Part shown: positions 11,541-57,918 of the stretch, piece after piece
Layout of the letters: each line of letters starts with the position of its first letter
How positions within the stretch are numbered: position 1 is the first letter of the stretch
NCBI GenBank assembly: GCA_027475525.1
Contig: JAMWFC010000089.1
Location: 310,001-374,000 of the forward strand
Length of the DNA: 64,000 nt
Source: Macrolepiota albuminosa
Lineage: Eukaryota; Basidiomycota; Agaricomycetes; Agaricales; Agaricaceae
Reading direction: 5' to 3'
Translations under genes and position numbers: made by a program
Notes under the pieces: generated by a model
What the model saw: only the letters and a program-made list of their open reading frames with translations
The model's database searches: none
Told to the model about the DNA's origin: nothing

Positions 11541-11569
11541 GAGGACGGCCCTGCCCACAACCAGAGCGG

Positions 11570-12034: not shown

Positions 12035-12046
12035 GCAGAGGGCACT

Positions 12047-12511: not shown

Positions 12512-12874
12512 CTTGGTCGGTGCAAAGTGCCAACAGTGGAGGAGGTGGATGAGGAAGTACAGGCTATGCCTGGGCTGAGCTCAGACCACAATGTGGTGAT
12601 GATGAGCGAGGAGGAATATCAAGCCTACAAGACGAGAGACGAGTGAATACTTGCTCATGATGTTCAAGGCACGAAGCCTCCAGATAGACGGCAGCAAAAG
12701 GCAAAGAAGCCTGAGGACTCAGTAGATGTATGTCTGCCTACGTCCTCCTGAGTCAAGTTAGATGACTTGAGGGACAGCAATCAAGAGGCAAAAGCCTCAT
12801 ACTGTGAGGACACACAGTCCTTATGGGAGCGACCAGCTCCCCTTTCTGAGTATGACTGGGCATATGATCCTTGA

Positions 12875-14749: not shown

Positions 14750-14818
14750 AGTACTCACCTCAGGGAGCAGCGTGAAGAGTGGGACGTAGCTGCCCAACTG
14801 CTCAAGGAGCATGAAGTC

Positions 14819-16414: not shown

Positions 16415-16518
16415 TTTGATTGGCAGTGCTGATTGTGGCTTGGCTGAGTTGGTCAGCAACTGTGGCTGAGACACGTCTAAAAATTCGAAATTTTTTTTTT
16501 CCCTTTCTTCCCTCAACC

Positions 16519-26583: not shown

Positions 26584-29500
26584 CTAATCCTCTAGAAACT
26601 GGCGAGGGGAGCCCACCTAAATGCAATATCAGCTCAGACGATGGACTCCCAAGCGATAAAACGTTACCTTGTACATATACGACTGCCACGTCTCCTGCAG
26701 ACTCGTATCATCCGCCGCGATGCCCCTCAACACACCATCCGGGGTATAATGTTGACCATGCTGCTGCCGGAGATGGCCATAAACCCCATACAACTGCGCT
26801 ACCGGATCCACAACAGACGAATGCGGCACGCCATGAGGAGTCGTAGTTTGGTATGTCGGGTAGTAGTGTGTTTGCTGTTTCTGTGGTACATGTCCTTGTA
26901 GCTGGGCGTGATCCGTGTACTGTTGCTGTTGTGTGTATTCCATCTCGTCAGACGCTACCGCCGGCCGATGGTCAGAGACTTGTCGGGGCATGTGCGGCCG
27001 TGTCACTGAGTGAGCGCTGTTGTACGGCTGCTCGGGGTCAACATAATGTGGAGTAGACAAGACGGGTTGTTGATGAGGTGCCAGCTGCTGATGCGGGAAT
27101 TCCGAAGACATTGGGTACATAGAATGTTGTTGAGAGGGCTGAGTCGGTCTCTCCGGCTGCTCGTAGGCCAATTCCATCTGGTTGAGTGAATGCGAGGACG
27201 TAGGGTGGGTATCCGTGACAACAAAGGTGTGTTGTTCAGCATAATGCTCATCTTTATACTGCTGCTCGAATTGTTGCTGCCGGGTTTGCTGCTGCTGGAC
27301 ATACTGCAGAGACTGCTGCTGTCTCTGTCTCTCAAGCTCCGTCTGACGCTGTGCCTCACGCACAGCGCGCTGCCGATAATACTCATCCTCCCGTTCCCTA
27401 ACTTCCCTCCTCCTCCTCTCCTCCTCCTCCTGCTCCCTAAACAACCGCTGCTGCTGCTGCTCCATCTCCATCTCCATCTGCCGTCTCCTCTCCAACTCAT
27501 CACGTTTCGCCCTCTCCTTCTCCCTCTCCCTCTGCACAGCCTCCATCTGCATCTGCTGCTGATGACAGCGGGCGACATACTCCCTCTGGTACTGCTGGGA
27601 CGACACCTCCATCCTCGACGCGAACCCCGGCCCCCCACTCGCACTCGCACTCGGTCCATACGCCTCGCGGATCTGCGCAGCGATGTGCCCGTCAAACCCA
27701 CGCAACTCCCTCACCAAGCTCGGATGCACATTCGCAAACGACGGATTGTCGACAGGCACGAACGCGTAGCCCGGCGAGTCCGATGCCCCCGGCACCGACG
27801 AGGAGGACGAGGACGGGCTAGACGAGGACGCGGTGGTGCTTGCGGTAGTAGGGCGCACACGAGGCGCAGCTTTAGTGGTGAGTGTATGCGTCTTGCCGCT
27901 GAAGATTGACAATTCATCGTTTTGTTCCCCACCCGGCGGGGTGGGCCTGAATATATCCCCTGGCACGCTAGGCGGGACGCCGTTGTTGGTGTCCATGAAA
28001 ACCGTCTGGGCCTTGCGATGCAATCGCTGCAAAATCGGCTAGTTACGACGACATGTGTGTCATGAGTATGTGTGTGAGGGGGAACGGGACGACGTACCAG
28101 GAACTTGGTGGAACGACCCCCGTATGCAGAGGCTTGCTCAAACAGTTCGCATGCAGTACGCAGTTCTAGCAAGGCCGCTGGAGCCACTTTTGACCGCGAG
28201 CTGTGCGTTACGACGGATGCCAACATCACCTATAAGCGAGTCAAATCTTAATCAATCCGTGGCCAAGGGTGCAAGGCGAGAAAGGCGGAAAAAAAGGGAA
28301 GAGAGGAGGGAGGGGAAGGAAACATACCGCAGCAGAGAAAGCATGAGTCCACAAAACCCAAAAGCGCGCAATTTGCGCAGGGAACAACCTAAACTGCTGC
28401 GACACGGACGCGATGATCGTACACGCGCTCCGATATCCCGCAAGGAAAGACGGTGCATATTGACTCCTAATCGGATCCGCAGGGTTGCTAGAAATCGCAT
28501 GTGCAAAGAAACATCGGTGGATGTAAAGTAACGCTGTCTCAACGTGTGAGTAAAAAATGTAAAAGTAAAAAAGTAAAAAAAAAGGGCCACTCTCTCTCTC
28601 TCTCCAACGCAAACACAAGGGGGGGAGAGAGAGACTTACTCAGCTCCCGATAATTAATCGGCATAAAATGGCTCATCGTCTGCGCCAAACCCGCTCCCTG
28701 TGGCGGAGGACCCTGTGCATACGCCGGAAGTTCCATATCGCGAACTTTGCGATCAAGCTCAAGAATAATCGAATACTTTGGTGCGCGGGACGTCAAAGTG
28801 CCCTGGACGACGCCCGCGACACACTCTGCGCCGAATCGGGCTTTCCAATACGGGACTGTCGGGAAGGAAGGCGTTAATGACCTGTGGGTACAAGAGAAGG
28901 AGGAGAAGGAGGAGGAGGAGAAACGAAGGATGGGATGGGGACGTACAGCTTGGTTGGATTGCGCCGTCGTCTGTCATTGTTTGGTCTGGATCGAAAGGAA
29001 GCTCGCAATCTACAAAAGGGAGGGAAAAAGTCGCTAGTCGGCCCGTCGCGAGACTCTGTGTTCCGTCGTGCGCAGCCATCAGCGTGGGGTCTCCAAAAAA
29101 TCGAAAGACAAAAAAACCGAAAGAAAAGAAAGAAAAGAAAGAAAGAAAGAAAGCGAGAGTATGCGAGGGAGAGGGAAGGGGGGGAAGAGGGGGAGAACAC
29201 GTACCTGCCAACAATCGGTTATGAACAATTCCCAGAACAAGGCACGACGTTTCTGCACTTCAGCAGGGGGTAAACTCCAGCGCGCGCAATCCCGATCTAT
29301 CCTCGCCCAAATAATCAGCACACTATACCAACGCCAGCACCAACACCAGAAGCAACCACTCACGCAGACCAATCTATCTCAACCCAAGGGTTTGGGGGGG
29401 GGGCGCAAAAAGGCAACAAAAAAAGATCATCACAGCAATCAGCAACACACTCCCAACACCTCAAAATCAAAAAACGACATACACTCTGCGCCAACTTCGT

Positions 29501-31474
29501 CGCGATACCCATAAGCCCCCACGTGGCCTCAATAGCGTTCTCCCCGCCCTGTACGCCCTCATAAATCGCCATGAGCGCGAGAGTCTGCACGGTCGCGACG
29601 GAGGGGGGCCGTTCGAGGACGGGCGCGAGACCGAGCGCGGTCTTTGTGAGCGTGTAGTACGTGCTGGCGTCTGCGGTTGCGTCTGTGAGCGCGCCGAAGG
29701 CTAGGAGGATGAATAGGAGTGCGAGGTCGTGTGGCTGCTGCTGCTGCTGCTGCTGTTGTTGTTGGTGGTGGTGTTGGTGGTGTTGGTGTTGGTGTTGGTG
29801 TTGGTGTGGGGGTGTGGAGGCGAAAGGAGGGGGAGGGTGAGAGGGAGCGGGAGGGTGAGGGTGAGGGTGAGAGGAAGGGAGAGGAGGGGGAGAGGGACAC
29901 GCCTCGGTGTACCACGCGGGGAGGATTTCTTCCTCGAGCTGGCGCCGGGTGACGGCGCCGAAGAACCAGGGTGCCTGTTCGAGGTATGACGCGCACAGAC
30001 GCTGTGCCTCGGACCAGGGAGGGACGTAGGTCTTTGTTAATATGTGAAAGTCGAGCGGGGGGTCGTGGGTATGGGTATATGAACAAGAGGAGGAGGGACC
30101 GAATGGGAAGGAGGACGCGAGGGCTTGGATGCCTCGGGGGAGCGTGGAGTGCGTATTTGTGTTAGTATTTGTAGTCCAGGTTTGTGGTTCGGTGGTAGAA
30201 GGGAACGAGGACGGTGTCGTCGTCGTGGGGGATGATGATGATGAGGCGGCTGCTTCGCCCTGTGTGGTAAGATAGGGATAGGATGGGTCAGTTGCGTTCC
30301 GTTTAGTTGGGGGTGGGAGGAAAGACGTACGATGAGGAGACTCTGTCGCGTGATCGTCAGAACACAGTCGGAGAACGACGACGACGACGAAGAGGACGCA
30401 CCTCCTGGCCCGCAGACCGACCATAAAACGTAGCAGCACCATCGTCCCTAATAGCCAGCGTCCCAAACGCATCAATCGCCTGACTCTCCTCCTCTCCCTC
30501 CTCCCCTCGCCTCCCCCCAGCCCCAGCCCCTCCTCCTCCAGCTCCAGCTCCTCCTCCAGCTCCAGCTCCACCACCACCACCACCACCACCACCGACGGCA
30601 GCGGCGGAGGGGGAGACATCGTCAAGCACCTCACCCGCAGCAGCATGCAGCTCAATAATACTCTTGATCCTAAGAAGGTCGCGCGAGAGCAGCGGGTGCG
30701 CATCACGCGTCTGGGTGGAATGTAAGATCGCCAACGCGTCTTCGAGTTGTCGGATCCTGTCGCTCATCGCTGCGATCTTTTGGTGCAGTTTCTCTGTGTC
30801 TGCGAGGACGAAGCTTTAGGCCAGGCGAGCAGGCGAGAGGGGAGGGGGGAGGGGAAGGGTCGTCAGCGTTAGCGGAGGAGGAGGCGGAATAGAAGAGAAG
30901 AGACTGAGGATAGAGCAGAGCGACTCACCGAGTGCCCTGGCCGGTGGTCAAGCTCCCATTCGGACATATCGCGGAGCACCCGCGTCGTTTACAACTAGAT
31001 GTGAGATAAGTAACCCATGGCCAAGGGAGGACGGGTGGGGATACACAATTGCGAATGAGTGGTGGAAGGACACCGTACGTACCTCGAGCACGGCACTGTC
31101 TTGTCGCATTTGAGTTTAAGTCTGGGGGCGCGGCTCGGGTGGAAGGACACCGTACGTACCTCGAGCACGGCACTGTCTTGTCGCATTTGAGTTTAAGTCT
31201 GGGGGCGCGGCTCGTTTGAATGGATGGGTGGGTGGGAACGACGACGTACCGTCTGCATTCGGCACAGGAGAGAGCACCTGCACACAACGGGACGGGGCGG
31301 GGCGGGGCGGGGGCGTCAGTCAACCAACGACACACAAAACACACCGGACGCCGACGTACCTCTGGCGCGCTTAGACTCTTTATCCTGTGCCCGCTGGATC
31401 TGCGCGGGCGTGAGCTCCTTCTCCCTCTCCCTCTCCCTCTCTCTCTCCTTGCGTGCTTGCACTTGCCCTTGCAT
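26584..31474 (-). CDS. Zn2Cys6 fungal-specific transcription factor
   Basis: Thirteen exons on the minus strand: 31474-31360, 31277-31250, 31198-31160, 30994-30929, 30813-30402, 30259-29485, 29296-29205, 29055-28947, 28855-28640, 28533-28328, 28229-28098, 28038-26668 and 26616-26584, totalling 1197 aa in one frame. The start is MQGQVQARKERERE. The zinc cluster is spread over three exons: CAEC, then CDKTVPC, then C...C (Cys 43, 46, 53, 59, 62, 71). FVLADTEKLHQKI and a short coiled coil follow, then FYGRSAG, a His/Gln tract, and the fungal-specific regulatory domain (RRALFWELFITDCWQ, FVDCELPFDPD, PINYREL, LYIHRCFFA, RFWVLWTHAFSAA). The last 450 residues are Gln/Arg-rich coiled coil, ending VGSPRQFLED. 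The exon 6/7 junction (29485/29296) is frame-compatible but the least certain. The 39-nt third exon appears twice because of a 77-bp duplication. Target genes unknown. Confidence 0.85.
31061..31214. repeat. Exact 77-bp tandem duplication over a TF exon
   Basis: 31061-31137 equals 31138-31214. Each copy contains the 39-nt zinc-cluster exon (31083-31121 and 31160-31198) with its splice sites. Probable assembly artefact. Confidence 0.95.
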
Positions 31475-32458: not shown

Positions 32459-33396
32459 TCACGACCCCCAGCCAAACCAACTCCTCGCATTGCCCTGCCT
32501 CTGCCTCTGGTGGACGCGGCCATCCCCAACGTCGTACCCCTCAACATCACTCGGCACATCAACCTCCTCGAACCGGCCCGTCCCCGTCCCTGAACTCGCG
32601 CGTTCACGCAACCCAGGAACCTCCCGATCCAGCGCCGCCAGCTCAGCCTGAAGCCTGCGTCTGCGTTGCACAACGTCCTGGTTCGAATTCGAATTCGAGC
32701 TGGCATCCGGTCCTCCCACAGCGGCATCCGTCATGAACGCCGTGCCAGACGCCACGATGCGCGCTCCGTACGTCCCCCACAGCGCTCCAAGTATCCCTGC
32801 CCCGGTTCCCGCTCCCTGCGCCTGGGCCTGTGCCTGCGACTGGGGCTGGGGCTGGGGCTGGGGCTGCACAGTACCCCAAAGCGCACGCAAGCGCTCCTGT
32901 ACGAACCTATACACACGCGCCCTAAGCTGCGCAAGCGCCTCATCAATCTGCGTCTCATGCGCCCTCAAAAACGGGCGCAAATGCCTCGTGTAGATGTACG
33001 ACGCTCCCTGCGTCTGTGGTAGCACTAGGTACAACAAAAACATCATTTTCAGTGTATAATAAAACGGGATCCTGCGTGATCAGCCAGTGTGTGTGTGTGA
33101 GTTTCCTTTTCCTCTCCGGGGAGCAAGCGTACCATGAGAGAACCCATTCCGCGAGGTACTCGACGCCGACGAAACACCCGAGTACAGACCAATACATGAG
33201 CCAGCGCTCAAGGTCCGCCTCTGACGCCGGGCGCTGTGTGAGAGTCTTATACGACGCATAACCGGGGTACAAGAACGCCGCCGTGGAGCTGGGGGGGGGA
33301 CGAGCGACAGTGAGCGAGGGGGCCGCTTTGGGGCAGGGACGAAAAAAACGTCCAGGAGCCTGCCTACCTGACGATACGCGCAGTGAGACCGAGCAT
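32459..33396 (-). CDS. TB2/DP1/HVA22 (REEP/Yop1-like) ER membrane protein
   Basis: Three exons: 33396-33368, 33288-33133 and 33071-32459, with introns of 79 and 61 nt, 265 aa. The spliced product begins MLGLTARIVSS and shows the family signature: FLYPGYASYKTL, RWLMYWSVLGCFVGVEYLAEW, then across the second splice site WIPFYYTLKMMFLLYLVLP and QTQGASYIYTRHLRPFL. The hydrophobic hairpins shape tubular ER membranes in this family. The C-terminal half is a longer, low-complexity tail with alternating Gln-Pro/Gln-Ala, a short coiled coil (QRRRRLQAELAALDREV) and an acidic stretch, ending SWFGWGS. The start is the ATG that gives the canonical N-terminus after splicing. It is divergent from the BAH-PHD gene. 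Confidence 0.9.
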
Positions 33397-33453
33397 GGGA
33401 GTCCAATGCAAGCAAACAAGATCGCAAGGGTGCTGACATAAGCCACATGGGGG
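33397..33453. promoter_or_regulatory. 57-bp divergent start-to-start interval
   Basis: The predicted ATG codons of the REEP-like gene (minus, 33396) and the BAH-PHD gene (plus, 33454) are separated by only 57 bp. If both starts are right, the two genes must share a promoter or have promoters within each other's 5' regions. No TATA box is seen. Confidence 0.55.
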
Positions 33454-35613
33454 ATGGTTCGACTCACTGCCACTGCTGCGCGCAGACGCAGACGCAAGCC
33501 TGTGGTGCCCGTGTCCGTGCCAGCTGCTGACCCGGATGTCCCGTCCCCAGCGGAATGGAGCTCCATGAAAGAGTACGGGTCTTTCATCGGTGCGTGTGTC
33601 TTCGGTCCTAGGGCTGTGCGGATGGCTGAGGACTTGCAGTGCGCGACGAAGACGGCGAGGAGCATACCTTCCGCAAGAATGATTGGTGCGTGCGCGTGCG
33701 GTCTCTCTAGGGGGGGTAGGTTCCTCACTCTCAGCCTCCACAGCGCACTCATCCTGCCGCACGGGCGGCAAGTCGGCGAGCACCTCGAGATGCACGAATA
33801 CTGGGTTGGCAAGATCCGCGACGTGCGTGCGCGGAGCGACACCGACGTATGGACCTACGTCCAATGGTACTGGGCTCCCCACGAAGTCCACGCCCGCGTC
33901 AAATCCTTGTACGTCCATCTCTCTCTCCTCTCTCTCTTGCTTTCTTGCGCTTTCTAACCCACCAAGTGGCGCAGCGACGCCACACTCTGCAGTCCCTACG
34001 AACGCGTCTTTTCCGATACATTCGACTACGTCTCTACCGCCTCCTTCGACGGTCCGTGTCCCTTCCCTTCCCTTCTCCTCCCTTTCCCTTCTCCCTCTTC
34101 TTGCTCTCGCTCTTGATCTAACCCCAGACACAGCCACAGTCCCAGTACACAAACTCAACGACGGCGACCTGCTCCAACCACACATCCCGTGGGAAACATT
34201 CTACACGCGGTACACATTCGAGCACCGCCCTCGCCTCATCTCGGTGCGTCCCTCTCCTCTCCCTCTCCCCCCTCTCTCTCTCATTCACTCTCTCAACCCA
34301 TTCTAATTCTAATTCTACTTCTGCTTGTAGCCAAAACCAGGCGAATACTCATGCATCTGCCACGTCCCGTACGCCCCCACTGATCCCTCCACACCCACCC
34401 TCGCACTCGCACCAGCCCTGCGCCTAATGCACTACTGCCCCCGCCCAACATGCCGCCGCTTCTTCCACGCAACATGTCTCCTCGCTGCCGCATGCCTCGA
34501 CACCGACACCGACGCTACGAGCAGGAATCGGAGGGTACTCGCTACATCGCCTGATTCGGGTTTTGGTCTTGATCTTGGTCTTGGTCTTGGTCTTGGTTCG
34601 AGTCTTGGTCTCTCGCCTGATTCGAGTCGTGCTCTTGGTCTCGATTTTGATCAAGATAGCGGTCGCGGTCGTGGTCGTGGCTTTGCCCAAGTCCGAGTCG
34701 AGGATTCGCCTCTGCTCAAGAAACCGAAACTGGAACTGGAGCTGACACAGAAACAGAAACGCGGTCGAGGCCAGCGCGCACACCCTCCCACGCCGTCGCC
34801 TTCCCCATGTGCAGACACCGACGCCGACGGAGACTACGACGGAGACTACGACGAAGTCGAAGTCGAAGTCGAAGTCTACGCCAACGCCAACGCCGACCAA
34901 GTCAAAAACAACACCAACTCAACAGAGCTTTCCGAGATCCTCACAACGCTCCCCGCCGACCTGGTACGGATCGCGACACAGCCGATCGTGCGCGGGCCCG
35001 TGTGGCCCGCGGGAGGCGTCAGTGGGAACCTCGGTGCTGTCGTGTATGCGCGTAGCAGCCGATCGTGCGCGGGCCCGTGTGGCCCGCGGGAGGCGTCAGT
35101 GGGAACCTCGGTGCTGTCGTGTATGCGCGTAGAGTCGTGTATCGTGCTGTTGCGCGTGCGCGTGGTGTGTGTGGGGGTAAAGAAAAAGAAGAGAAAGAAA
35201 AGGAAAAGGAAAAGGAAAGGGAAGAGGAAAGTGGGACTGAGGAAGAGGAGGAAGAGGGAGGAGAGTATGCGTTGGAGGGGTGGGAGGAGCGCGTGGGTGA
35301 TTTGTGCAAGGCTGTTGTGCAGTTGGAGATGGAGATGGAGATGGACGGGGGAGGGGGCAAGGCTAAGGCTCGAAGGCGGAATGCCAACCCCAACTCCAAC
35401 TCCAACGTCAATTCCAATGCCAACGCCAACGCCAACGTCAAAGGGAAACAGAAGAGGAAAGGGAAAGGGAAAGGGAGGAAGGGCACGAAGCGGCCCCGGA
35501 ACGCGGTAGATGATGCCGAAGACGTCGCAAGTGGAGGAGGTGGAAGTGGAGGTGGAAATGGAGGAGGAGGTGCACTCCCGTTTTTGTGTCCCCAGTGTGG
35601 TGCGGCGATATGA
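33454..35613 (+). CDS. BAH-PHD domain chromatin protein
   Basis: Six exons: 33454-33589, 33631-33685, 33744-33908, 33975-34051, 34128-34243 and 34331-35613. The start is MVRLTATAARRRRRK. The spliced product gives a BAH domain (DEDGEEHTFRKNDCALILP, EYWVGKIRDVRAR, VQWYWAPHEV, ERVFSDTFDYV, ETFYTRYTFEHR) and then a PHD-like zinc region (CICHVPYAP...HYCPRPTCRRFFH..C). The long last exon encodes low-complexity Leu-Gly, Glu-Val and Asn-Ala/Asn-Ser repeats and a Lys-rich basic block, ending FLCPQCGAAI. BAH-PHD proteins read histone marks or nucleosomes. An exact 77-bp duplication (34979-35132) breaks the frame; counting it once gives 584 aa with the expected CPQC end. The 41-nt first intron is unusually short but needed for the BAH motif. 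Confidence 0.85.
34979..35132. repeat. Exact 77-bp tandem duplication in BAH-PHD gene
   Basis: 34979-35055 equals 35056-35132. As given it shifts the frame of the last exon; counting one copy only restores reading to the stop at 35613. Probable assembly artefact. Confidence 0.95.
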
Positions 35614-38428: not shown

Positions 38429-39383
38429 TGATAGGACCCTATACAGGTTAGGCGCATCAACGGCAGGCTCGGCACCGGCTCCGGAAACCTTGCCGCACTC
38501 GTTCCGAACTTAGCGCACGCGTTCTACCTATTTTAAGCCATTTCTGACGGCCGCGCACGGCAAGAAGCAGATCCAATCAGTGATAGCGCCGATCGGCAGA
38601 CAGAATGACAACTGACAGATGGCATCAGTCACTGACGACAGCGCTTAGCGAGAAGCCTGATGATCTATCAAAAACTGACAGACAGCTTGGCGTTTGACCT
38701 TGGCGTCTGACACCGCTTACCGTCTCGATTTGGCGCCCAACGTCGCTTAGGTGTTCTGACAGACAGAAGGGTGATGGAGTGATGGTTTAGCTTCGCGATC
38801 TGTCGCCTGGCGTCGCTAAGGCTCTTGAATGGACGGTAGGGATCTGAAACCGTTGGAGCTACCCCTTTGAAATTTTCCAGTTTACCGCACTCTGGCGTCA
38901 TTAGCCACTGGCGACGGCGAACTCATTGTAGTATAAAAGTACTTACCGACTTGTACATAGGACAGGATAGCAGACGAATAGACCACAGTTTCCCCCACTT
39001 ACTTCAGTCTCCCTTACGCTCAAGAGCTCATTTACGCTACGGTCGGCAACGTCGAACTCATCGGCAGTTACAGACGTTCGCCAACACTCGACATACTCGC
39101 GCCTTGCAACTACGGCAGGCATTATCGACGCTTAGAACTTCGCTAAGCTTACCGTGCTCTTGCCGCTTCCCGTTGCCGTGTTCACTTACCGCATTTTCTT
39201 AAGCGCTTTACCTTAGCGCTTGACACTTGCCGACTCCGTTACCGACTTTTACCCTTTTTCACAGACGCGTTCTCTGGGACCTGCCCGGGACTCCTCATCA
39301 CACTTATAGCGCGCCCAACGCACACTCTTGGTACGGTAACACAATAGTTACATTTGTTGCTGACCAAACTTTGGGCGTCATCA
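38429..39383 (+). repeat. Element B 5' LTR (955 bp)
   Basis: Ends TGATAGG...GTCATCA. A TATAAAA box at 38932-38938 probably marks the start of U3-driven transcription. Short ORFs inside recur in the 3' LTR only because the LTRs are copies. Confidence 0.95.
38932..38938 (+). promoter_or_regulatory. TATA box of element B LTR promoter
   Basis: TATAAAA within GTAGTATAAAAGTAC, in the middle of the LTR where the U3/R boundary is expected. The same box in the 3' LTR is at 49440. Confidence 0.6.
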
Positions 39384-39763
39384 AATTGGAGCCCACCGCG
39401 AGGGATCTCTAAGGCAGAATTCCGCCAGAAACCCGTCTCCAGCGTAGGCGCCGCCTGCTAGACCAGTCGGCAGAAGGCATTGCTCCTTCCCACCCATCAA
39501 CTCCACAACCACCTGGTGCCTTACCGGGTCTCTCTCTAGCCCAGGAACTACAGAACGCCACTGTAGACGCTTTTCCTGATCTCTTCCCGCATTCCCTCGA
39601 TTATAGTGCCGACGACCCCTTAGCGTCGCCCTTTGCCTTACCGCAATCAGTCACTCCCATTACTCCGCTAACGCCACTTTCACAACTCATCTCTCTTACC
39701 CCGTCGCCAATCTCCAGAACTCCTTCCCCACTACCGCTAACCGAACTCGCCAACACAGTCGCT

Positions 39764-42153
39764 ATGGAACAACAAGTTCAGCGCATGCCGCCACGCAACC
39801 ACTTCTCGGCACCGAAATGGGACGAGACCAAGCCACGGGAGCTCTCCCAGTATTTCAAGGAGTTGGAGTATTTATTCAGAGACTGTAACATTACCGACCA
39901 CACGCAGATGAAGGAGTACGCGGCAAGATACGTATCGAGTTGGAGTATTTATTCAGAGACTGTAACATTACCGACCACACGCAGATGAAGGAGTACGCGG
40001 CAAGATACGTATCATACGACACGGCAGAGACGTGGACAGGTCTTACCGAGTTTGCCGCCTTTGTCCCTGCCGCCCCGCCAGCTCCAGCCCAAGGCGCTTC
40101 GTATGAGGACTGGAAGACGGCAGTGATCCAGTTGTACCCTGGCGCAGAGGAAGCTACCCGATACACGGTAAACGAGCTCCAGAAACTAGTTCAGGAATCT
40201 TTCGACAGTGGCACATCGTCGCTTGGCGCGTTCTCTACGTATTACCGCGAATTCCAGAAAATCGCTAGGTGGCTTCTGCAGAACGGCAAGCTCTATATTA
40301 ACGAGGAGCGTCGCCTGTTCCAGCAAGGCATCCCGACTTCGCTTTGGACTCGTATTGCTCGTCGCCTAGAGATAGTTCACCAGGCTCATCACCCAGACGA
40401 GCCCTATAACGTTGCCGACGTCTTTGAAGCCGGTAAATGGGTTCTCAAGGGAACGGACACTGGCGTTGGACTGCAACGCGCTAGGATGAGCCCACCCCCT
40501 GAGCGAACTAACGGTATCATTCCCATCCCGCCTCCTGTTGCCGACTTCGTTAAGAAAGAGGAGCTCAATGCTGCTATTACCGCCGCTGTCGCTTCCGCTA
40601 TGACACGTATCGAAACTATGATTACCACCAACCTGACTGCTAACCGACCCGCTAACGTTCCCGCGCCTGGCCCTTGCCACTTCTGTGGGGAAATTGGCCA
40701 TACCATGACTAGAGGACGCTGCGCTACCCTCGAGAATTACGTTCGCCAAGGTAGAATTCGAAGGGCTATCGACGGCAAGATAGTTCTTACCACTGGCGCC
40801 ACCATCCCCAACTACCCCGACAAGAAGTCCTTCCAGGAGCGAGTTGATGAGTGGCATAGGCGCAACCCAGGACAAATCGTTACCGGCACGCTATCTGGCA
40901 ACGCTAACCCCGACCCCGAACAGGCGACCCAACAGCAGATGATTCACGAGGTCCTACATTTCGACAGCGTTGGCGACCACCCTACTTTTTCGCGGGAAGA
41001 GCGTATCGCCAAGCTGCAGCAGGAATTAGATTCGCTAAAGAACCAGGTCTTTGATGGGGTTGAAGTTAAGCAGCCTAAACAACCTCTTAAAGGATACAAG
41101 CCGATGCCTCCCGCTAGCAAGTTACCGGCACCTGCTCCTGCCGCACCTCCTGCCACTGCCCCTGCTCCTGCCTCAGAACCATCGTCGTCCGCTACCGCTC
41201 CCGAACCGCCTTTGCCGCCTCTCCATCCCTATTCAGGGATTCCCGACCGATATCATGCTCCCGCACAACGAAACTTTGCCGCTCCCGAGAAACGTCCTGA
41301 AGGTGGCTACCGACCTACTGCGCCAATTTTCGACATAGAGAAATCTAACCACGTTTTTAACCGTATCATGAAAACCCACGTCACCTTGTCAGTAGAAGAA
41401 CTCTGCAGTATTGCTCCCGACGTTCGCAATCAGGTGAAAACGGCAGTCACTCCCCGACGACCCTTGGCGACAGCCGTTGCCGAGGTCGATGAACTCGACG
41501 ACGCGCTTCCTGGTTTCTCTGTTACCATCGACCCTCCCGACACTGAAGACACTCTTGCCGACCCCATCGCTAACGCCACCTCTGTGGACCCAGTGGAGAC
41601 CTATCTTAGGTCAGTCGACCACGGCGAAGACCCGGCAATCCTTACCGTCGCCCAAGAATCACACGCTATCCGCTCGGTAGCGCTAACCGTAGACAACAAG
41701 CACGAAGTAGAGGCAATCGTGGATAGCGGGTCTCAGATTATTTCTATGGCAGCAGAAGTCGCTAACGATCTAGGCCTCATATACGACCCTACCGTTATAT
41801 TAAACATGCAGAGCGCTAACGGAACGGTAGACCGATCCCTAGGCCTCGCCAAGAATGTGCCGTGCACCCTTGGCGACATTACGTTTTATCTTCAGATCCA
41901 CATTTTACGCTCCCCCGCATACGACCTACTACTTGGCAGACCTTTTGACGTCTTGGCGCGATCAGTCGTCAAGACAGTTACCGACGAGGAAACGACCCTC
42001 ACAATTAGCGACCCCAATTCCGGAATCCGACGAACGGTGCCAACGTTCCCTAGGGGACAACGAAAAGGCGCCCGCGCTAAGCCCCCGGAGTTTACCGACC
42101 AGCACGCCAACGAGCCTCCCCACCGGTGTTTTCACAGACCATCGAGGAGGTGA
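39764..42153 (+). CDS. Element B gag-protease polyprotein
   Basis: The start is MEQQVQRMPPRNHFSAPKWD. The capsid-like part (RELSQYFKELEYLFRDCN, then WTGLTEFAAF) is cut by the exact 77-bp duplication at 39860-40013; counting that once puts 39764 and the long frame 39940-42153 together. A zinc knuckle CHFCGEIGHTMTRGRC (C-x2-C-x4-H-x6-C, two residues longer than usual in the last gap) is followed by a Pro/Ala-rich linker and a retropepsin domain with AIVDSGSQIISM and YDLLLGRPFDVL. The active-site DSG is intact. It ends at TGA 42151-42153 and overlaps pol in the -1 frame. Confidence 0.85.
39860..40013. repeat. Exact 77-bp tandem duplication in gag
   Basis: 39860-39936 equals 39937-40013. It shifts the gag frame; one copy alone restores it. 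Probable assembly artefact in an otherwise intact young element. Confidence 0.95.
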
Positions 42154-45100
42154 TTGGCGACGATCACGGAGATGTAGCGCTAACGCTGGAATTTGACCAT
42201 TCAACTGGTCTTGTAACTGTTTTGTCTACTGCTTTTCTTGACCAAGACGTTTTAACTACTTTACCCACTACCGACGCAGAACCTTCCCAGAAAAACCAAA
42301 ATATTACCGACTCCTCTCTTGCCTACTTGTACCTTACCGCTTCCGAGTCATTTCAAAATATTGCGTCTACCGATACTTATCTCACCACTCTTCCCGGAGC
42401 CTCGTCTCCTGCCGTTCTTGGACTTGCCGCCCCTCAGGCTACAGTTCCCCTTTCCACCTCTGTTTATAACCAGGCTAACGCTCCCAAAAGGAAAGGGGTA
42501 CAAGTTAAAAAGAAATATAAGCCAGTCGCGCTTAAAACAAAACCAATCGCTACGCACTCTCCCGAGACGTTTAGAATCGAGCGCCAGATCATAGGCGACC
42601 CTCTTGCCGACATGCCGACCTTATCGCCGAATCCGCCACCCTTTCAGCCCACAGGACGTTTTACCGAGGAACGCCAGCAGCAGTTCGCCAAGGAGCACGA
42701 CACAGGATTTTTGACCAAAGATGAGTTGAACGTCCTTACCGATCTTGTCGCTAAGCAAGACAAAGCCTTTGCTTGGGAGGACTCAGAACGTGGCAGTCTA
42801 CGTACAGATTTCTTTCCGCCTGTCGTCATCCCGACCATTCCTCACGTACCGTGGACTGAGCACAACCGACCGTTACCGCCTGGGATCGAAGCCGAGGTCT
42901 GCCAAATCATTAGGACCCTCACGTACCGTGGACTGAGCACAACCGACCGTTACCGCCTGGGATCGAAGCCGAGGTCTGCCAAATCATTAGGACCAAGATA
43001 CAGGCTGGCGTCTACGAGCCCTCCAATAGTTCTTACCGCTCCCGCTGGTTCTGTGTCCTCAAAAAGAACGGCAATCTACGCATAGTTCACAGTCTTGAGC
43101 CGCTGAATAGAGTAACCATACGACACTCTGGCGTACCGCCTTTCCCTGACCACTTTGCCGAGTCCTTTGCCGGGCGCATTTGTGGCGCCACCCTTGATCT
43201 CTACGTTGGCTACGATGAGCGCTTAATACACCCTTCTTCCCGCGACCTCACTACGTTTCAAACTCCGTTTGGCGCCTTGCGCCTAGTCACCTTACCGATG
43301 GGCTGGACAAACTCAGTCCCTATATTCCACGACGACATCACCTTCATCCTCCAACCCGAGATACCGCATAACGTCTTAAGCTTCATTGACGACGTTGGCG
43401 TCAAAGGCCCCAAAGACTGGCGACTCGTGAACGACTTACCGGCGACACATCCCGACAACTCCAACATTCGCTTAGCGCTATGGGACTTTTTCCAGCTGCT
43501 CAATCGAGTTCTCCAGCGTATGAAGTATAGCGGTGGTACGTTTAGCGGTCACAAACTTCTCCTTTGCGCGCCAAGGTTCAAAATACTTGGTCACATCTGC
43601 ACTCCCGACGGTCGTGTTCCCGACGAGTCTCGCTTAGCACTCTTAGAGCGCTGGGGTCCTTGCCGCGACTTATCTGAAGTTCGCGCCTTTCTTGGCACCG
43701 TTGGCGTTCTCAGGATCTTCGTCAAAAACTTTGCCCATCGCGCACATGCCCTTAACCGACTCACCCGCGCCAACGAGCCCTTCGAATTTGGGCCAGACCA
43801 GGTCACTGCACAACGCGACTTAGTAAAAGCCCTACAAGACGCCAAGCCCCTAGTCCCCATCGATTATACCTCTGCCGACCCTGTCATCTTGGCGGTGGAT
43901 ACCTCGTACATTGCCGTTGGCTACTTCTTGTGCCAATGCCTTAGCGACAATCGAAAACAGCGACGCTACAACCGCTTTGGGTCTATCACGCTTAACGACA
44001 GAGAATCTCGCTACAGTCAGCCTAAGCTGGAGCTTTATGGACTCTTCAAAGCCTTCCGGTCGCTAAAGATGTATTTGATTGGCGTGCGCAACCTTATTGT
44101 TGAAGTCGACGCTAGGTACATCAAAGGCATGCTGCAGAATCCCGATATCCAGCCGTCCGCTAGCATGAACCGGTGGGTAGTCGCTATCCTCATGTTTCAC
44201 TTTGAGTTGGTACACGTCAAGAGCTCTTTCCACGGACCAGATGGACTCTCTAGGCGACCACGGCAGCCTGGCGACCCGGTAGTGGACCCACAGGCTGATA
44301 GCGATTTCGAGGACTGGATCGATAGACTACATGGTTTCGTGCACCTCATACAACAACCGATTCCCCTACTACGACGGCAACAGCCTACCAGTATTCTGTT
44401 ACATCCCATCGTCCCTTACCGTCCCGAGACCTTTAGCGCACCCCTCACATTCTACACGGCAAGCATCCTTGGACAAGACTTGCCTCCCGTAAAAGTCGTA
44501 CAGGAACCCCAGTCGCTAAGAGAAGACAGCAAAAACCTGACCTACGATGCCGTTCCCCGATCCGCCAAGGCAAAGGCGGAAGACAGTCGCCTGTTAGTAG
44601 TCGAGCAATGGATACAAGACCTTAAGCGACCCCCAGACCTTACCGACGAACAATACGCTACCTTTATCCGATACGCTACCCACTTCTTCTTTACCGACAA
44701 CCGACTTTGGCGACGAAATCGAGATGGCGCTCACAAGCTGATCATCAAGCCAGAAGGTCGCTTACGAGTCTTGCGCGCTATGCATGACGAGCTAGGTCAT
44801 AGAGGTCTGTACGCTACCCGGGCTTCTCTGTTAGAACGCTTCTGGTGGCCACACGCTAGTGCCGACATCGCCTGGTACATTAGGACTTGCCACCTATGCC
44901 AAATCCAACAAACACGCCAAGTACTCATACCGCCAACCGTTGCGACGCCAGCTCCCCTCTTCAGCAAAATCTACGTCGACACCATGCATATGCCTAAATC
45001 TGGTCGCTACAAGTACATCATTCAAGGTCGCTGCTCGCTAATCCACTGGCCTGAATTTCGAATGCTTCAGAGAGAAAATACCGACGCGGTCGCCAAGTGG

Positions 45101-45952
45101 CTATTTGAGGACGTCATTTGCCGTTGGGGAGCGCTAAGAGAAATCGTCACGGATAACGGTGCGCCCATCATCAAAGCGCTAACGTACCTCGCCAAGAAAT
45201 ACAACATTCACCACATTCGAGTGTCTGGCTACAACAAACGCGCCAATGGCCTGGTAGAGAGACCCCACTTTGACGTTCGGCAAGCGCTCTTCAAGGCTGT
45301 CGATGGCGACGAGTCTCGTTGGAGTGAAGCGACACACTCAGTATTTTGGTCGGAAAGAGTTACCATTCGTAAGCGCATGGGTTGTTCTCCTTACTACGCG
45401 GCTACTGGCACCCATCCTTTACTCCCTGCCGACATTATAGAAGCGACCTACCTTCAGCCACCACCCAACAGTATCTTAGCGACTACCGACCTTATCGCCA
45501 GACGAGCTATTGACCTCCAACGAAGGAAAGAAGATTTGGAGCGACTTCACGAGGTAGTCTTTAGCGCACGTCGCCAAGCAGCCCTACGATTCGAAACCGA
45601 GCATAGCGCTACCATCAAAGATTACAACTTCCCGAGAGGAGCGCTAGTGCTCATGCGCAACTCCAAAATCGAAACTTCATACAACAAGAAGATGCGCCCT
45701 CGCTATCTAGGACCCTTGGTAGTTATCTCTCGTAACCGTGGAGGCGCTTACGTGCTCTGTGAATTAGATGGTTCAGTACTACATCGACCTGTTGCCGCTT
45801 TTCGCCTACTACCGTATCTCGCCAGGGAACGAATCGATTTGCCGCTTGAGGCGCTAGATATTGACACCGCCAAGCTTAGGGAACTTGAAGAAACCGAACT
45901 ATTGGACGATGATGACTTGCCGACCCTAGTTGAAGAAGAAGAACCAGATTAG
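42079..45952 (+). CDS. Element B pol: RT, RNase H, integrase
   Basis: The pol frame opens after a TAA near 42076-42078 and overlaps gag by about 73 nt in the -1 frame, so expression probably needs frameshifting. RT: KKNGNLRIVHSLEPLN, LDLYVGYDERL, FQTPFGALRLVTLPMG and SFIDDVGVKGP (FIDD catalytic box). RNase H: VILAVDTSYIAVGYFL. Integrase: HDELGHRGLYATRASLLER, H..C...CHLCQ zinc module, then KIYVDTMHMP, IVTDNGAPI and GLVERPHFDV, giving the D, D, E triad. It ends with an acidic tail and stop at 45950-45952. The 77-bp duplication at 42840-42993 breaks the frame as given. All catalytic residues are intact. Confidence 0.88.
42840..42993. repeat. Exact 77-bp tandem duplication in pol
   Basis: 42840-42916 equals 42917-42993, just upstream of the RT active site region. 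Counting one copy merges the upstream pol frame with the frame running to 45952. Probable assembly artefact. Confidence 0.95.
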
Positions 45953-46383
45953 AAAAGACTATATATTGATAAGCTCCTTTTTCTATTACTTACTTTACTT
46001 ATCTTTCTTGCCGGTACTTACTATACTATATTCAACAGACAATTTCTTACATAGTCAAGCCGCAGCGCTAGCGTGTCGCCAACGCTTGGCGCCTTGCGCA
46101 ACTCTCGCCAAGGGTTTTTCGCTATGATGATCTACTGAGCGTTTCCCTTTTTCCTCAAAATTTGTCTAAGTCCCTCACCTACTACTCTTCTTGCTAAAAC
46201 CTACTTTAGAATACTTACCGCTTGATTTCTCTTTGCCTTACCTTCCTTGCTCTCTGCTGTGCGCTAACTCAGATTATAAGACTTATCAGTCCGCTCGGCA
46301 AGGAGGCGGCAAAAACATTTATAGAACGAGACGGCAAAGAAAATACATATTTACATAAACGGCCTATCTACCCTAAGGTCCGT

Positions 46384-48766
46384 TTACTCGCTTTCGTCAT
46401 CCATCGGCAAGGAATCGTCAGACACCGGCAACGAGGAATCGCGAAGAGGCAAGAGATCGCCCGGCAAGATGTTGTTGGCAGCTTGCCAATCCATAGCGGC
46501 TTGGCAATCCGCTTGGTAATCTCGCAAGACGTGGAGGCTGCGACCCAAGTTGGAGTAGCGCAAGCGAAGCGCCATGAGCTGTCCCCGCACCCGTTCCCGT
46601 TCCCGTTCCATCGACGTCGCCATCGTTGCCGCCCTCCTCGAATACCGCTCCAGCATCTCGCGAGGATTTAGCGCTATCACCGGATAAACGAGGTCCTGAC
46701 CTAGCCACTGAAAGGCGTCGCCAGTCACTGTCGGCTGCGGCTGGGGGGTCCAGGCGGGGTTGACTCTGGCGACCACTGGGCGCCTCGGCTCCAGCCCTGC
46801 GACGTCCTCAGGATCTGACACCTCCCAAGGGGCGACGTTGCCGTAAGGCGGCAGCCATCGCCACTCAGGTTCCTCCCTGGCGACTCCTTCCGCTCCCTCT
46901 CCCTCTCCCGCTACCACCTCCTCGTCGCCTTGGCGCTGCGTCGCCAAGGTTTCATCCTCCTCCCCTTCAGCATCCTCATCCCCTCCCGTTGCCGCCCCCT
47001 CTGCCTTCTCTTCCCCCATCTCGACGTCGGCGGGGGCTTCTTCCCGCTCTGCCACCTCCTCCTCCTCGCCAAGGGACCTGGCCGCCAACTGGATAGGCGA
47101 CAAGAGGCTACTTGGACCAGCCTCTGGGTCACGAGGCGGGAGGCGACTAGCCGCCAACGCCTTCTCGAGGTCCTCCATCTCGGTATCCTTTGGCGCTGGC
47201 GAGGGGGAGGGCGACGACGAAACTACACGCTGGCGCTTTGCTTTGCCCTTCCCTTTGCTGGGGGAAGGGGCTTGTCGTTTTGCTGGGACCGGAGTCCCTT
47301 GGCGCTCGCCGGCGCCTCGGTTGCCGACGGTTTCTGATCCATCTCCTTGGCGCGTCGGCAACGCCAAGGAGGCTCGTCCAATTGCTGCCATGCCGCCGGC
47401 AGCCACCTTCTTCTTCTGCTCTTCCACAAACTCCCTCGCCCTCCTTACCAACACCGCGCGGGAAAACGTCTTCTCGACGAGAGCGTCTGGCGCGCCGCCA
47501 CGCTCGCGACTCTTCGCCCCGTCGATAGTGCAAGCGCGTTTCAAGGCGCCGCAACGATAACACGGCTGGGCCCCAGTCGGGAACCAACAGCCTTCCGGGT
47601 CGTTATCGGCCCAGCACTTGTCGCACTAGCGCAAAAAGTCAGCAGAAAGAATAAAGACAAGAAAAGTCACTTACCGCTCCCCGTGTCTCCTTGAACGCCT
47701 GCCGGGTCGCCAAGGAAACAGTCTTCTTCCCCTTCATCTCCTCCATTACCACTCCGGCCTCCTGCCCCTCGTCAAGGACGGCCTCCTCGCGACGCGGCAA
47801 CAGCAGCCCCTTCAGCTCCTTGTCATCAAAGCTGGACTGTGTGGGCGCCTAGAGACATCACGGTAAACAAAGTAGTCAGACTTCCAAAAGACCGCTTACC
47901 GCGTACTGGGGAGCCTTTCCTTTGCGAGACTTCGAAAGAGTGGTTAGCGCGGCACGGCAGCGGCAAGGATAAGCCAAAAACTCACCTTCTTCAAAGCCTT
48001 ACCCGGCTTGATTGGGGAGCCCTTCCTGCTAGCCGGCAGTGCTGGGCTCTGTGCACTGCCGACGCGACCACTCTTGCCGGACCCTTCAGCTACCGCCTGC
48101 CTCTCGGCAGCAGGCGCCTTCCCCGCGGCAACCTCCTCCATCTCTGCGGCCAACGCGGCAACCCGTTCCCGCTCCTCTAGCGCCCTGGTGATCTCGCGGG
48201 CGTCTTGAGAGGCCTCCTCCTGCCTTGCCGCGATCTCCTCCTGCACCTGCATGCGCGCAAGGGGCGCTAACACCTCTTGCTTGCTATGGGGTGACAGATC
48301 AGACCAAAGCTAAGTCAAAAAGAATGGGTTAGAGATACTTACTCTGCCGCAGGGGCGCTTACCGTCATCGGCAAGGCGCCAGACAAAATATCCTCCAATT
48401 CGTCCTCGATAGTCGGGACGGGAGGAGGCGCCTAGGGAACTCGATCAGTTAGCGACCCGACAGGCGACAAAAGCAACTTACGAAACGAGAAAACGGCGCT
48501 AACCACTCGGCGCCACGGTTGTCCACATAGCGGGCCCGACACCACTCCCGCACTTCTATCTCGCGATCCCAGCCCACGCCAAGGACCCGCACTTCATACC
48601 ATCGCTCCAGCAACTTCATAACGGCAATAACCAAGTTTGTAGGCGCCTCCGCGCCCACACCCTCGATGCGCCTGACAAAGCGGTTGGCCTTTTCGATATA
48701 CGCGGAGGCGGCGTCTTGAGCCTCGCGAGACGGAACGGGAGGCGGAGTTGGAATGCGGAAGGACAT
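46384..48766 (-). CDS. Antisense six-exon cargo gene of element B
   Basis: Exons on the minus strand: 48766-48482, 48431-48363, 48309-47986, 47929-47900, 47848-47675 and 47625-46384. Five introns of 50, 53, 56, 51 and 49 nt are all phase 0, with GTAAG or GTGAG donors and AG acceptors (TAG in four, AAG in one); the product is 707 aa. It starts MSFRIPTPPPVPSRE and has an N-terminal helical domain (KLLERWYEVRVLGVGWDREI), a coiled coil rich in Glu/Arg/Ala (REITRALEERERVAALAAEM), a basic Ser/Lys-rich linker and, beginning exactly at exon 6, a Cys6 motif C-x2-C-x8-C-x8-C-x2-C-x6-C (CDKC...CYRCGALKRAC) resembling a zinc cluster. A KGKGKAKRQR basic patch and acidic Glu runs follow. No stop or frameshift. 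The function is unknown; a DNA- or RNA-binding regulator is an inference from the Cys6 and basic patches. Confidence 0.82.
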
Positions 48767-48927
48767 TTTAATTGAATTAAAGCGCCAGGTAAAGATGGGG
48801 AGGAGAAACGAAGTCCACACTCATGCGCCAGGACTATAAACCAAATCTCAAGAACGCACGGACCACCTGTCACAAAAGCGGTAACGGTAGCCTTATTTGG
48901 TGACTGAGGACAGTCAATTTTTCAGTT

Positions 48928-48936
48928 GGGGGGAGA
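48928..48936 (+). other. Polypurine tract of element B
   Basis: GGGGGGAGA directly before the 3' LTR start (TGATAGG), the position where plus-strand cDNA synthesis is primed. Confidence 0.7.
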
Positions 48937-49891
48937 TGATAGGACCCTATACAGGTTAGGCGCATCAACGGCAGGCTCGGCACCGGCTCCGGAAACCTTG
49001 CCGCACTCGTTCCGAACTTAGCGCACGCGTTCTACCTATTTTAAGCCATTTCTGACGGCCGCGCACGGCAAGAAGCAGATCCAATCAGTGATAGCGCCGA
49101 TCGGCAGACAGAATGACAACTGACAGATGGCATCAGTCACTGACGACAGCGCTTAGCGAGAAGCCTGATGATCTATCAAAAACTGACAGACAGCTTGGCG
49201 TTTGACCTTGGCGTCTGACACCGCTTACCGTCTCGATTTGGCGCCCAACGTCGCTTAGGTGTTCTGACAGACAGAAGGGTGATGGAGTGATGGTTTAGCT
49301 TCGCGATCTGTCGCCTGGCGTCGCTAAGGCTCTTGAATGGACGGTAGGGATCTGAAACCGTTGGAGCTACCCCTTTGAAATTTTCCAGTTTACCGCACTC
49401 TGGCGTCATTAGCCACTGGCGACGGCGAACTCATTGTAGTATAAAAGTACTTACCGACTTGTACATAGGACAGGATAGCAGACGAATAGACCACAGTTTC
49501 CCCCACTTACTTCAGTCTCCCTTACGCTCAAGAGCTCATTTACGCTACGGTCGGCAACGTCGAACTCATCGGCAGTTACAGACGTTCGCCAACACTCGAC
49601 ATACTCGCGCCTTGCAACTACGGCAGGCATTATCGACGCTTAGAACTTCGCTAAGCTTACCGTGCTCTTGCCGCTTCCCGTTGCCGTGTTCACTTACCGC
49701 ATTTTCTTAAGCGCTTTACCTTAGCGCTTGACACTTGCCGACTCCGTTACCGACTTTTACCCTTTTTCACAGACGCGTTCTCTGGGACCTGCCCGGGACT
49801 CCTCATCACACTTATAGCGCGCCCAACGCACACTCTTGGTACGGTAACACAATAGTTACATTTGTTGCTGACCAAACTTTGGGCGTCATCA
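48937..49891 (+). repeat. Element B 3' LTR (955 bp)
   Basis: Same length as, and by eye the same sequence as, the 5' LTR. It is followed by the target duplication ACAG (49892-49895). The antisense gene starts 171 bp inside its left edge, so this LTR, read on the minus strand, lies directly upstream of that gene. Confidence 0.95.
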
Positions 49892-49895
49892 ACAG

Positions 49896-56289: not shown

Positions 56290-56521
56290 ATGCTTGTTCA
56301 AACGTACGCTTCAGCGTATCCGGCTTGTATATCACCGATTTCTGTAACAATAGCTGATGGGAATCTATGGACCGTTTAGATCTTTAACGAGAGAACGTCC
56401 AAGAAACGTTGAAACGTTCAAGCTCAAGGTTTGCTGATGGGTTTTCCGGAGTCTTCGGGCCGGGCATAATCATGAGATCATATCATTTCTTTACTTTCAC
56501 CGCTCGCTCGTTGTACGGATT

Positions 56522-57918
56522 ATGGCTGAGACACCACGTTCCATTGTAATCATCGGAGGCGGCATAATAGGGTGCACAACCGCCTACTATATCACTCACC
56601 ATCCTTCTTATTCCTCGGATATCAAGGTTACCGTCGTTGAGGCTTCAGTACATGGAGCGGCTCAAGGGGCGTCTGGAAAGGCCGGAGGTCTCGTAGCACG
56701 GTGGGCGTATCCACAGCCTCTGGTAGCCGTCTCGTTCGATGAGCATGTACGATTGGCAGAAGTTCATGGTGGGGTCGATAGGTGGGGTTGGCGATATGTG
56801 AATTGCGGGAGTTGGGAGGGGCAGGGCGAGATAGTAGAAGAAGAATCAATTCCAGAAAACGATGATGACGACTTAGATCCGGGTTCTTTGAGTGGCCGGC
56901 GGAAAAGTTTACAAAAGACGCTCGGGCTTGGGGACGTAAAGCCAAACGCAAAGGGAAGCCGAAAGCACAAGGGCACAGGCTTACCGTCCGACCTCAACTG
57001 GATGCATTCGGAACTCACAGACTCCTATTCCCCTATGGCGCCTTACGGAGACACTGCTCAAGTTCATCCGTACCTCTTCACCAAAAGTATGCTGGCGCTC
57101 GCTCAGGAACGCGGCGCATCATTCCTTTACAGCACCCAAGCCACTAACATCACCACCTCACCAAGTGGTCACGTCACTGGGGTGGACTGCATTGTCACGC
57201 ACCCTCAGACGTCTTTTGAAGGTGATCCAGAAGGTCAATTCCAAGCAAGAACGGAGGATATTCACTTGGACGCGACTCATGTCGTCGTCGCATCAGGTGC
57301 ATGGGCTTCCCACCTCGTCCCTACTCTCCCTTTGACAGGTACGCGTGCACATAGTATCACTATTCACCCTCCTTCCCGCTCGCTGCCCATCGCACCCTAC
57401 GTACTTTTCACTGAAATCACTCTCCACACCACTACACGTGGATTGATACATTCGAGTCCTGAGATATACGCACGCCCTGGAACAGATGGCGAGGTCTATG
57501 CGTGTGGGCCTGGTGACGATGCACCGCTTCCAGACTCTGTGGACAACGTTGTTATTGAGCCTCGTGCCTGCGATAATATCTGGGAGGAAGTTCGCAGTGT
57601 TTCAAAGGTATTGAGAGCAGGCCGTGTAGATCGCCGCCAGGCATGTTTCCTTCCAACTGTATTAGGACGGCGCCAAGGACCTATCATTGGCGCAGCGGAC
57701 ACTGTGGCGCGGGGATTGGTCGTGGCGGTAGGACACACCTGCTGGGTGAGTGTCATATTCTATCCGTTCATGAATAGACTGGCTGACACTATCACGATTC
57801 TTGGTTAAAGGGGATATGTAATGCACCAGGCACCGCACGAGCAGTTGCAGAATGTGTCATAGACGGCGAGATACAGTGCGCGGACTTGAAGGCCCTCCGT
57901 CCTGAGTTGTTTTTGTAA
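56522..57918 (+). CDS. FAD-dependent oxidoreductase (DAO family, TDA3-like)
   Basis: Two exons, 56522-57745 and 57811-57918, with a 65-nt intron, 443 aa. The start MAETPRSIVIIGGGIIGC carries the FAD-binding GxGxxG (Gly12-x-Gly14-x-x-Gly17). It is followed by VTVVEAS (the acidic residue that binds the ADP ribose) and QGASGKAGGLVARWAYP, a signature of the TDA3-like branch of D-amino-acid/glycine oxidase-type enzymes. Later blocks are HVVVASGAWAS and, across the splice site, GHTCW-GICNAPGTARAVAE, the C-terminal FAD motif. A charged insertion (EEESIPENDDDDLDPG) lies near residue 110. The yeast homologue TDA3 is a putative oxidoreductase linked to endosomal trafficking; the substrate here is unknown. 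Confidence 0.88.

Follow-up and report, generated by a model that had tools for sequence, protein, structure and literature searches.

Judged by analogy, the nearest working system to the retroelement described here is that of VANC and the VANDALs, which are DNA transposons. In published accounts of the Arabidopsis system, a transposon-encoded protein is paired with a short motif that is concentrated in the element encoding it and scarce in other DNA (PMC5735166, PMC10398659). Motif density directs this anti-silencing protein to its own transposon, binding has been demonstrated, and the VANC21 motif lies mainly in noncoding tandem repeats in a single orientation (PMC5735166).

Genes placed antisense to gag and pol are described in several retroelements. 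The antisense ORFs of the plant Ty3/gypsy elements Retand (TRP28), Grande (gene23) and RIRE2 sit between pol and the 3′ LTR, and the same papers describe a promoter of its own and a nuclear protein for the Grande gene, and a proposed DNA-binding role for TRP28 (PMC11963269, PMC7264820). Papers that cite brtn, from the Botrytis element Boty, describe it as an antisense gene carried by a fungal gypsy element (PMC7264820, PMC8365987). HBZ of HTLV-1 is described as an antisense, spliced and nuclear bZIP factor that regulates the provirus, has spliced and unspliced forms and is driven by the 3′ LTR (PMC10186651). ORF3 of bdelloid rotifer LTR retrotransposons is described as a separate transcription unit with spliced messages (PMC5408684). 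In the titles and abstract openings that searches on fungal retrotransposons listed in open-licence PubMed Central we recognised no spliced antisense, zinc-finger antisense or motif-reading system. A first, sequence-only reading of the present locus was aware of no spliced Cys6 protein described in this position in fungi; the antisense position is already published, for Boty brtn as its citing papers describe it. Antisense genes between pol and the 3′ LTR are thus a known kind, and the introns and the motif tiling look new.

The window (the whole stretch of DNA analysed, 64,000 nucleotides of the Macrolepiota albuminosa genome) contains a gypsy element that is flanked by the 4-bp repeat ACAG (Table 1). 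Its two LTRs of 956 bp do not differ from one another, in agreement with the earlier description of the element as young.

Table 1. Coordinates of the element, its antisense gene and the 77-bp duplications within the window.
Feature	Coordinates	Strand	Remarks
Whole element with CGSYAA tiling	38429–49892		11,464 bp; 198 sites (86 plus, 112 minus)
5′ LTR	38429–39384	+	956 bp; 22 CGSYAA sites; exact match to 48937–49892
77-bp tandem duplication	39860–40013		At start of gag-protease frame
gag-protease open frame, stop to stop	39889–42153	+	Aspartyl protease Pfam match
pol	42081–45952	+	RNase H and integrase zinc-binding domains (Pfam)
pol, two overlapping open frames	42081–43085 / 42914–45952	+	Break at 77-bp tandem duplication 42840–42994
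Interval between convergent pol and antisense stop codons	45953–46383		9 CGSYAA sites
Antisense gene	46384–48766	−	Between pol and 3′ LTR; uninterrupted spliced frame
Exon 6	46384–47625	−	413 aa and stop; Cys6 stretch at start
Intron 5	47626–47674	−	49 nt, phase 0; kept among copies
Exon 5	47675–47848	−	58 aa
Intron 4	47849–47899	−	51 nt, phase 0; kept among copies
Exon 4	47900–47929	−	10 aa
Intron 3	47930–47985	−	56 nt, phase 0; kept among copies
Exon 3	47986–48309	−	108 aa
Intron 2	48310–48362	−	53 nt, phase 0; kept among copies
Exon 2	48363–48431	−	23 aa
Intron 1	48432–48481	−	50 nt, phase 0; kept among copies
Exon 1	48482–48766	−	aa 1–95
TATA-like box GGTTTATAGTCC (gene strand)	48831–48847	−	Candidate promoter of antisense gene
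3′ LTR	48937–49892	+	Purine run TTGGGGGGAGA immediately precedes
77-bp duplication starts in window	2526, 11009, 31061, 34979, 37131, 39860, 42840

The structure first read from the letters, 707 aa in six exons with five phase-0 introns of 49–56 nt on the minus strand, holds on splicing; the donors are GTAAG or GTGAG and the acceptors TAG or AAG. Its placement between pol and the 3′ LTR is also confirmed: among 39 other copies, which were found via the antisense gene itself, the pol end is on the opposite strand and the expected side in 37 (exceptions L022 and L041), and an LTR adjoins the ATG in 37 (exceptions L023 and L045). The TATA-like box, which sits between the LTR and the ATG in 16 of 17 copies examined (it is missing from L034), may serve as the promoter.

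The gene is like the plant antisense ORFs in lying between pol and the 3′ LTR, and like Boty brtn, as described in the citing papers, in being an antisense gene of a fungal gypsy element. Unlike the plant ORFs it has five conserved introns, the word "intron" being absent from the main texts of PMC11963269 and PMC7264820, and its element carries an element-wide motif; unlike Retand TRP28, its product contains neither TRP28/PF04195 nor another Pfam domain. It is like HBZ in being an antisense gene with introns inside a retroelement, but it lacks the bZIP domain, and the HBZ account mentions no element-wide motif (PMC10186651). It shares with bdelloid ORF3 an extra ORF that needs splicing, with expression from spliced messages in the rotifers and predicted splicing in the fungus; the ORF3 account describes env, DEDDy, GDSL, CC and TM domains and no antisense orientation (PMC5408684).

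Hexamer counts place CGGCAA, CGCCAA, CGGTAA and CGCTAA far over expectation in the element, and these make up the class CGSYAA (CG[C/G][C/T]AA), a feature that the sequence-only reading had overlooked. The element contains 17.3 sites per kb, whereas the rest of the window has 44 sites (0.85/kb) and its second gypsy element 0.32/kb; across 31 copies, the element part has 15.47/kb and the flanks 2.98/kb. Sites are present at 23/kb in the LTR, 18 in gag, 15 in pol, 21 in the gap between pol and the antisense gene, and 14.5 and 15.8 in the two parts of the antisense gene, with one site in the short stretch that separates this gene from the LTR. A set of 49 locus records, some of them overlapping, ranges from 7.5 to 17.8/kb over their full length, and the further loci L050 and L051 have 8.5 and 10.3/kb. 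When the 3′ LTR is left out there are 176 sites against 24.6 expected, with a mean spacing of 59 bp, no empty bin among 42 of 250 bp, and a variance/mean ratio of 0.59. Adjacent sites share a strand in 90 of 175 cases, a near-random order, and all three frames and both strands of gag and pol contain sites, although unevenly (only one is in plus-strand frame 0 of gag). The use of both strands, the near-random order and the lack of empty bins point to double-stranded DNA, not RNA. As with VANC and the VANDALs, the motif is dense in the element and rare outside it; unlike the VANC motif, CGSYAA is dispersed through gag, pol, exons and LTR on both strands, and binding is here a proposal. Same-strand spacings are commonest at 13, 30 and 26 bp (11, 9 and 6 pairs, both LTRs counted).

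Binuclear clusters of Pfam family PF00172 have the spacing CX2CX6CX5-12CX2CX6-8C, and the half site that zinc clusters classically bind is CGG. The antisense protein carries a CX2CX8CX8CX2CX6C stretch at the start of exon 6, its six cysteines are intact in 17 of the 17 copies listed, and the surrounding region has a pN/pS of 0.07, the second lowest among 18 windows. Like the Gal4-type Zn2Cys6 regulators, it has six cysteines and a second half of CX2CX6C, and the CGG in two of the four motif class members fits a zinc-cluster half site; unlike them, its first half is CX2CX8C where CX2CX6C is canonical, and Pfam gives no match, which places it outside PF00172. The Cys6 motif proposed by the sequence-only reading therefore stands as six conserved, zinc-cluster-like cysteines with a noncanonical first half. 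No Pfam model, PF04195 and bZIP included, matches the window protein at E≤1, and there is no useful match among 12 family members (TRP28 is absent from the five Pfam families listed for 12 alignment members); a profile search of PDB sequences gave no match at E≤10. The exon 6 product also contains a basic KR/KGKGKAKR patch, an acidic region and a long C-terminal helix, modelled with AlphaFold2 on a Termitomyces homologue and probably coiled-coil-like. The AlphaFold2 models from two alignments led by Termitomyces proteins have mean pLDDT values of 57 and 56, with confidence confined to long helices and low near the Cys6 part. We consider it reasonably probable that the product is a nuclear DNA-binding protein.

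A strand-symmetric, sharply bounded word occurring in any frame implies that something reads the double-stranded DNA of the element by sequence, and the natural reader would be the element-encoded protein with its basic patches, six cysteines and long helices. An internal promoter next to the 3′ LTR would drive transcription of the antisense gene, and the message would be spliced and translated. The introns of the gene would outlast each retrotransposition cycle because the genomic RNA presumably carries them in antisense, and the presence of all five in 36 of 40 copies is as expected if they do. The nuclear, coiled-coil Cys6 protein would then bind double-stranded CGSYAA and coat its own element, with a site every ~59 bp. 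The likeliest use would be sequence-specific self-recognition that prevents silencing or otherwise controls expression of the element, as VANC does for VANDAL transposons. We put binding of CGSYAA by the antisense Cys6 protein at a little under an even chance, and the overall explanation, that the protein of the spliced antisense gene recognises its own element through this motif, is rated likewise. More tentative is the proposal that the element has been recoded, gag and pol codons included, into ~176–198 sites for its own zinc-cluster protein that mark it against silencing, and anti-silencing as the use of the protein is somewhat doubtful. Gene and motif co-occur by choice of sample, because the copies were found via the antisense gene, and the control without the gene is one unrelated gypsy element; that the motif occupies LTR, gag and pol is an observed property of the element, and the link between protein and motif is correlational. 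These data make a sequence-based case that an intron-rich gene placed in antisense can remain whole in an element that replicates through RNA, and they single out one precise word as the candidate target of the antisense protein. Were the protein to read CGSYAA, an LTR retrotransposon would possess a self-recognition system that extends to its coding regions, and there would be a means of testing how fungal elements evade silencing.

The gene could instead encode a regulator of the HBZ or Grande gene23 type that acts on sense transcription or cDNA fate through protein contacts, with the tiling unrelated to it and serving a host factor, integrase or Gag; we regard this as possible although unlikely. 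Proteins encoded in the antisense position are described as mostly nuclear regulators in deltaretroviruses (PMC10186651) and as nuclear in maize Grande (PMC7264820), and the sole tie between protein and motif here is their co-occurrence in copies chosen for the gene. Gag and integrase, however, work on every gypsy element, yet the other gypsy element of the window is untiled, and few parts of the antisense protein are as conserved as its Cys6 stretch.

The tiling might also be a by-product of mutation or codon bias (CpG or codon-pair effects, for example), having no reader and accompanied by an unrelated accessory gene. CGSYAA contains a CpG, and GC content is 0.54 and 0.55 in the two 4-kb windows inside the element, near the top of the range for the window as a whole (0.37–0.56). 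However, the motif exceeds synonymous-codon shuffles, which hold no codon-pair model, in gag (43 observed, 8.9 expected), pol (47 and 8.8) and the antisense CDS (29 and 8.5), with each count above the maximum of 1000 shuffles (z of 8–15). Ranked singly against such shuffles, CGGCAA, CGCCAA and CGCTAA are the first, second and third hexamers of pol, where CGGTAA is outside the top 14, and class members are at ranks 1, 2, 3 and 6 in gag. Thirteen further antisense CDS, four divergent and nine closer, contain 24–34 sites against 6.0–7.9, the divergent four having 24–27 against ~6.5 by shuffles. The excess extends to noncoding DNA free of codons, with 22 sites against 2.3 in the LTR and 9 against 1.1 in the gap; the introns contain 4 whole sites against 0.6, a count equalled by the best shuffle. 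One-mismatch neighbours are near expectation (the most enriched is CGGGAA, 15 against 6.9; C or T as last base 38 against 24 and 32 against 17; T as fifth base 37 against 24), the exception being G as last base, 74 against 28. Nine further ORFs of the window are free of such an excess (14 sites, 12.7 expected). As the sites of gag and pol fall in every frame and on either strand, if unevenly, and motif bases and CpGs are better kept than others (see below), a by-product is quite improbable; mutational tiling was rejected as the leading reading on the excess over shuffles and in the LTR and gap.

Comparison of 17 chosen copies shows that motif bases change less than other bases in six of six regions, with fractions of 0.036 and 0.085 in pol, 0.033 and 0.081 in the LTR, and 0.060 and 0.231 in the introns, and the weakest contrast in the gap (0.104 and 0.132). 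Motif CpGs are retained at 0.872 and other CpGs at 0.722 in the same copies. Retention of the whole class is 0.788 versus a control mean of 0.567 (sd 0.111), a value reached by 4 of 199 control classes that were counted without sites overlapping the motif and that comprise 102–155 cells each, versus 1,412 for the class. When controls may overlap the motif their mean is 0.609, and at least 5 of 159 exceed the class. Relative to the window copy, the copies lose 7–32 sites and gain 5–15, with losses exceeding gains in 12 of 17; the gains are low estimates because insertions in copies are left uncounted. The tiling thus covers coding and noncoding DNA on both strands, goes beyond codon choice and is more conserved than neighbouring bases. 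The older-looking copy L050 (C81:1144300-1148200) has TGGCAA and TGCCAA among its most enriched hexamers, the products that CGGCAA and CGCCAA would leave on CpG decay.

Of 537 candidates from a DNA search of the genome of the host (100.1 Mb, 129 contigs), the best 40 were scored, and their main stretches are 80–100% identical to the window copy; the alignment comprises the window copy and 39 others, fetched with ~1.5 kb per side. All five introns are GT-AG in 36 of the 40 aligned copies, the others being L036, whose intron 4 has an AT donor, L038 and L044, both with a GC donor in intron 5, and the partial copy L045. An ATG start and an open frame of more than 640 aa are found in 26 copies with 23 distinct coding sequences (L036 is included, as are L012 and L013, whose extracted sequence contains no stop); the remaining 14 lack the ATG or have a broken or truncated frame. 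The gene described earlier as intact is therefore open in most aligned copies. In one subgroup the best intron 3 acceptor is 2 nt earlier and the following codon is AGT rather than TCT, giving serine either way. Among 18 of the 26 intact copies, Ks exceeds 0.05 in 151 of 153 pairs, and their Ka/Ks values range from 0.069 to 0.404 with a median of 0.115; the top value is that of the pair L013–L011. The gene end is divergent in two copies, one of them L013, which was retained in the set and is the source of the highest values. In these 18 copies, 33, 28 and 75% of first, second and third codon positions are variable. The dN/dS comparison between copies proposed by the sequence-only reading thus reveals strong purifying selection on a conserved antisense gene with five introns at fixed sites. 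A Ka/Ks of ~0.1, kept splice sites and a serine-preserving acceptor shift indicate that selection acts on the spliced protein, and thus that this protein matters to the element. Five GT-AG introns kept in 36 of 40 copies and the low median Ka/Ks led us to reject a chance ORF, and the gene is almost certainly a real, expressed one.

More distant relatives share this organization. Four modelled divergent loci (L046–L049, of six fetched) all contain five phase-0 introns as in the window copy, with overall protein identities of 68–80%. Protein homologues (26, 31 and 17 rows per protein search) are hypothetical proteins encoded in two Termitomyces genomes; protein searches scoring 7993, 7995 and 45 candidates found none outside Termitomyces, and viral contigs searched with the antisense-protein profile and with pol gave no relatives. 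The host genome searched with two Termitomyces proteins yields 2370 and 2405 first-look candidates, 70 of each being scored. The antisense gene of the window copy has a Ks of 1.4–1.6 to those of L046–L048, whereas for pol Ks is 0.33 in L048 and 0.23–0.25 in two short pieces of L047, these two loci carrying the contrast as the pol of L046 is outside the stretch fetched. In 13 closer copies Ks is 0.27–0.73 for the antisense gene and 0.20–0.41 for pol. The antisense lineages therefore look older than their present carrier backbones, suggesting that elements have exchanged the gene, with pol homogenisation or stronger constraint on pol synonymous sites as alternatives. The assembly may mis-join repeats, such that single linkages of gene and pol are unsafe; the Ks contrast is independent of any one copy. 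The antisense gene resembles a variable, long-lived cassette that can be exchanged and that keeps a fixed part, which would be the one that reads DNA.

Short introns of spliceosomal type and a zinc-cluster-like product could also indicate a captured host gene carried as a passive rider. Such a gene is poorly compatible with pol and the LTR being in their expected places in nearly all other copies, the thousands of first-look candidate relatives in the genome, constraint that persists across large synonymous distances, and homologues elsewhere that consist of numerous hypothetical proteins from two Termitomyces genomes; the passive host gene has little probability and was rejected as the leading reading on the kept element position and the many candidate relatives in the genome. 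It is very improbable that the active product is the antisense transcript (acting as dsRNA or siRNA or by transcriptional interference) rather than the protein, for although antisense-RNA regulation is discussed for retrotransposons, including some plant elements (PMC7264820), the low Ka/Ks, the conserved splice sites and the acceptor shift that preserves serine are at odds with this.

Exact tandem duplications in the window, found in a 30-mer scan at distances below 600 bp, have a period of 77 bp in seven of seven cases and involve unrelated sequences. Duplications of 77 bp are present in 26 of 45 loci, where a 40-mer scan shows as the only other exact repeats period-1 runs (L016, L017, L039). 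They are most likely unmerged k-mer-77 overlaps from de Bruijn-graph assembly, and a biological origin was rejected because the period is uniformly 77 regardless of sequence. Two of them fall at the gag and pol frame breaks of the window copy, which the sequence-only reading had also overlooked, and mosaics within single copies may be assembly chimeras because of these artefacts.

The second, unrelated gypsy-type element of the window (11543–17779) contains RVT_1, RNase H and integrase domains; its pol is ~20% identical to that of the first, and tblastn found no homologue of the antisense gene in it. A reverse-strand region at 29360–30763 has a weak Fungal_trans match (E 2e-4, under its cut-off). 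The genes near the tiled element include a TB2/DP1/HVA22 gene on the minus strand (32955–33854) and an FAD-dependent oxidoreductase gene on the plus strand (56438–57808).
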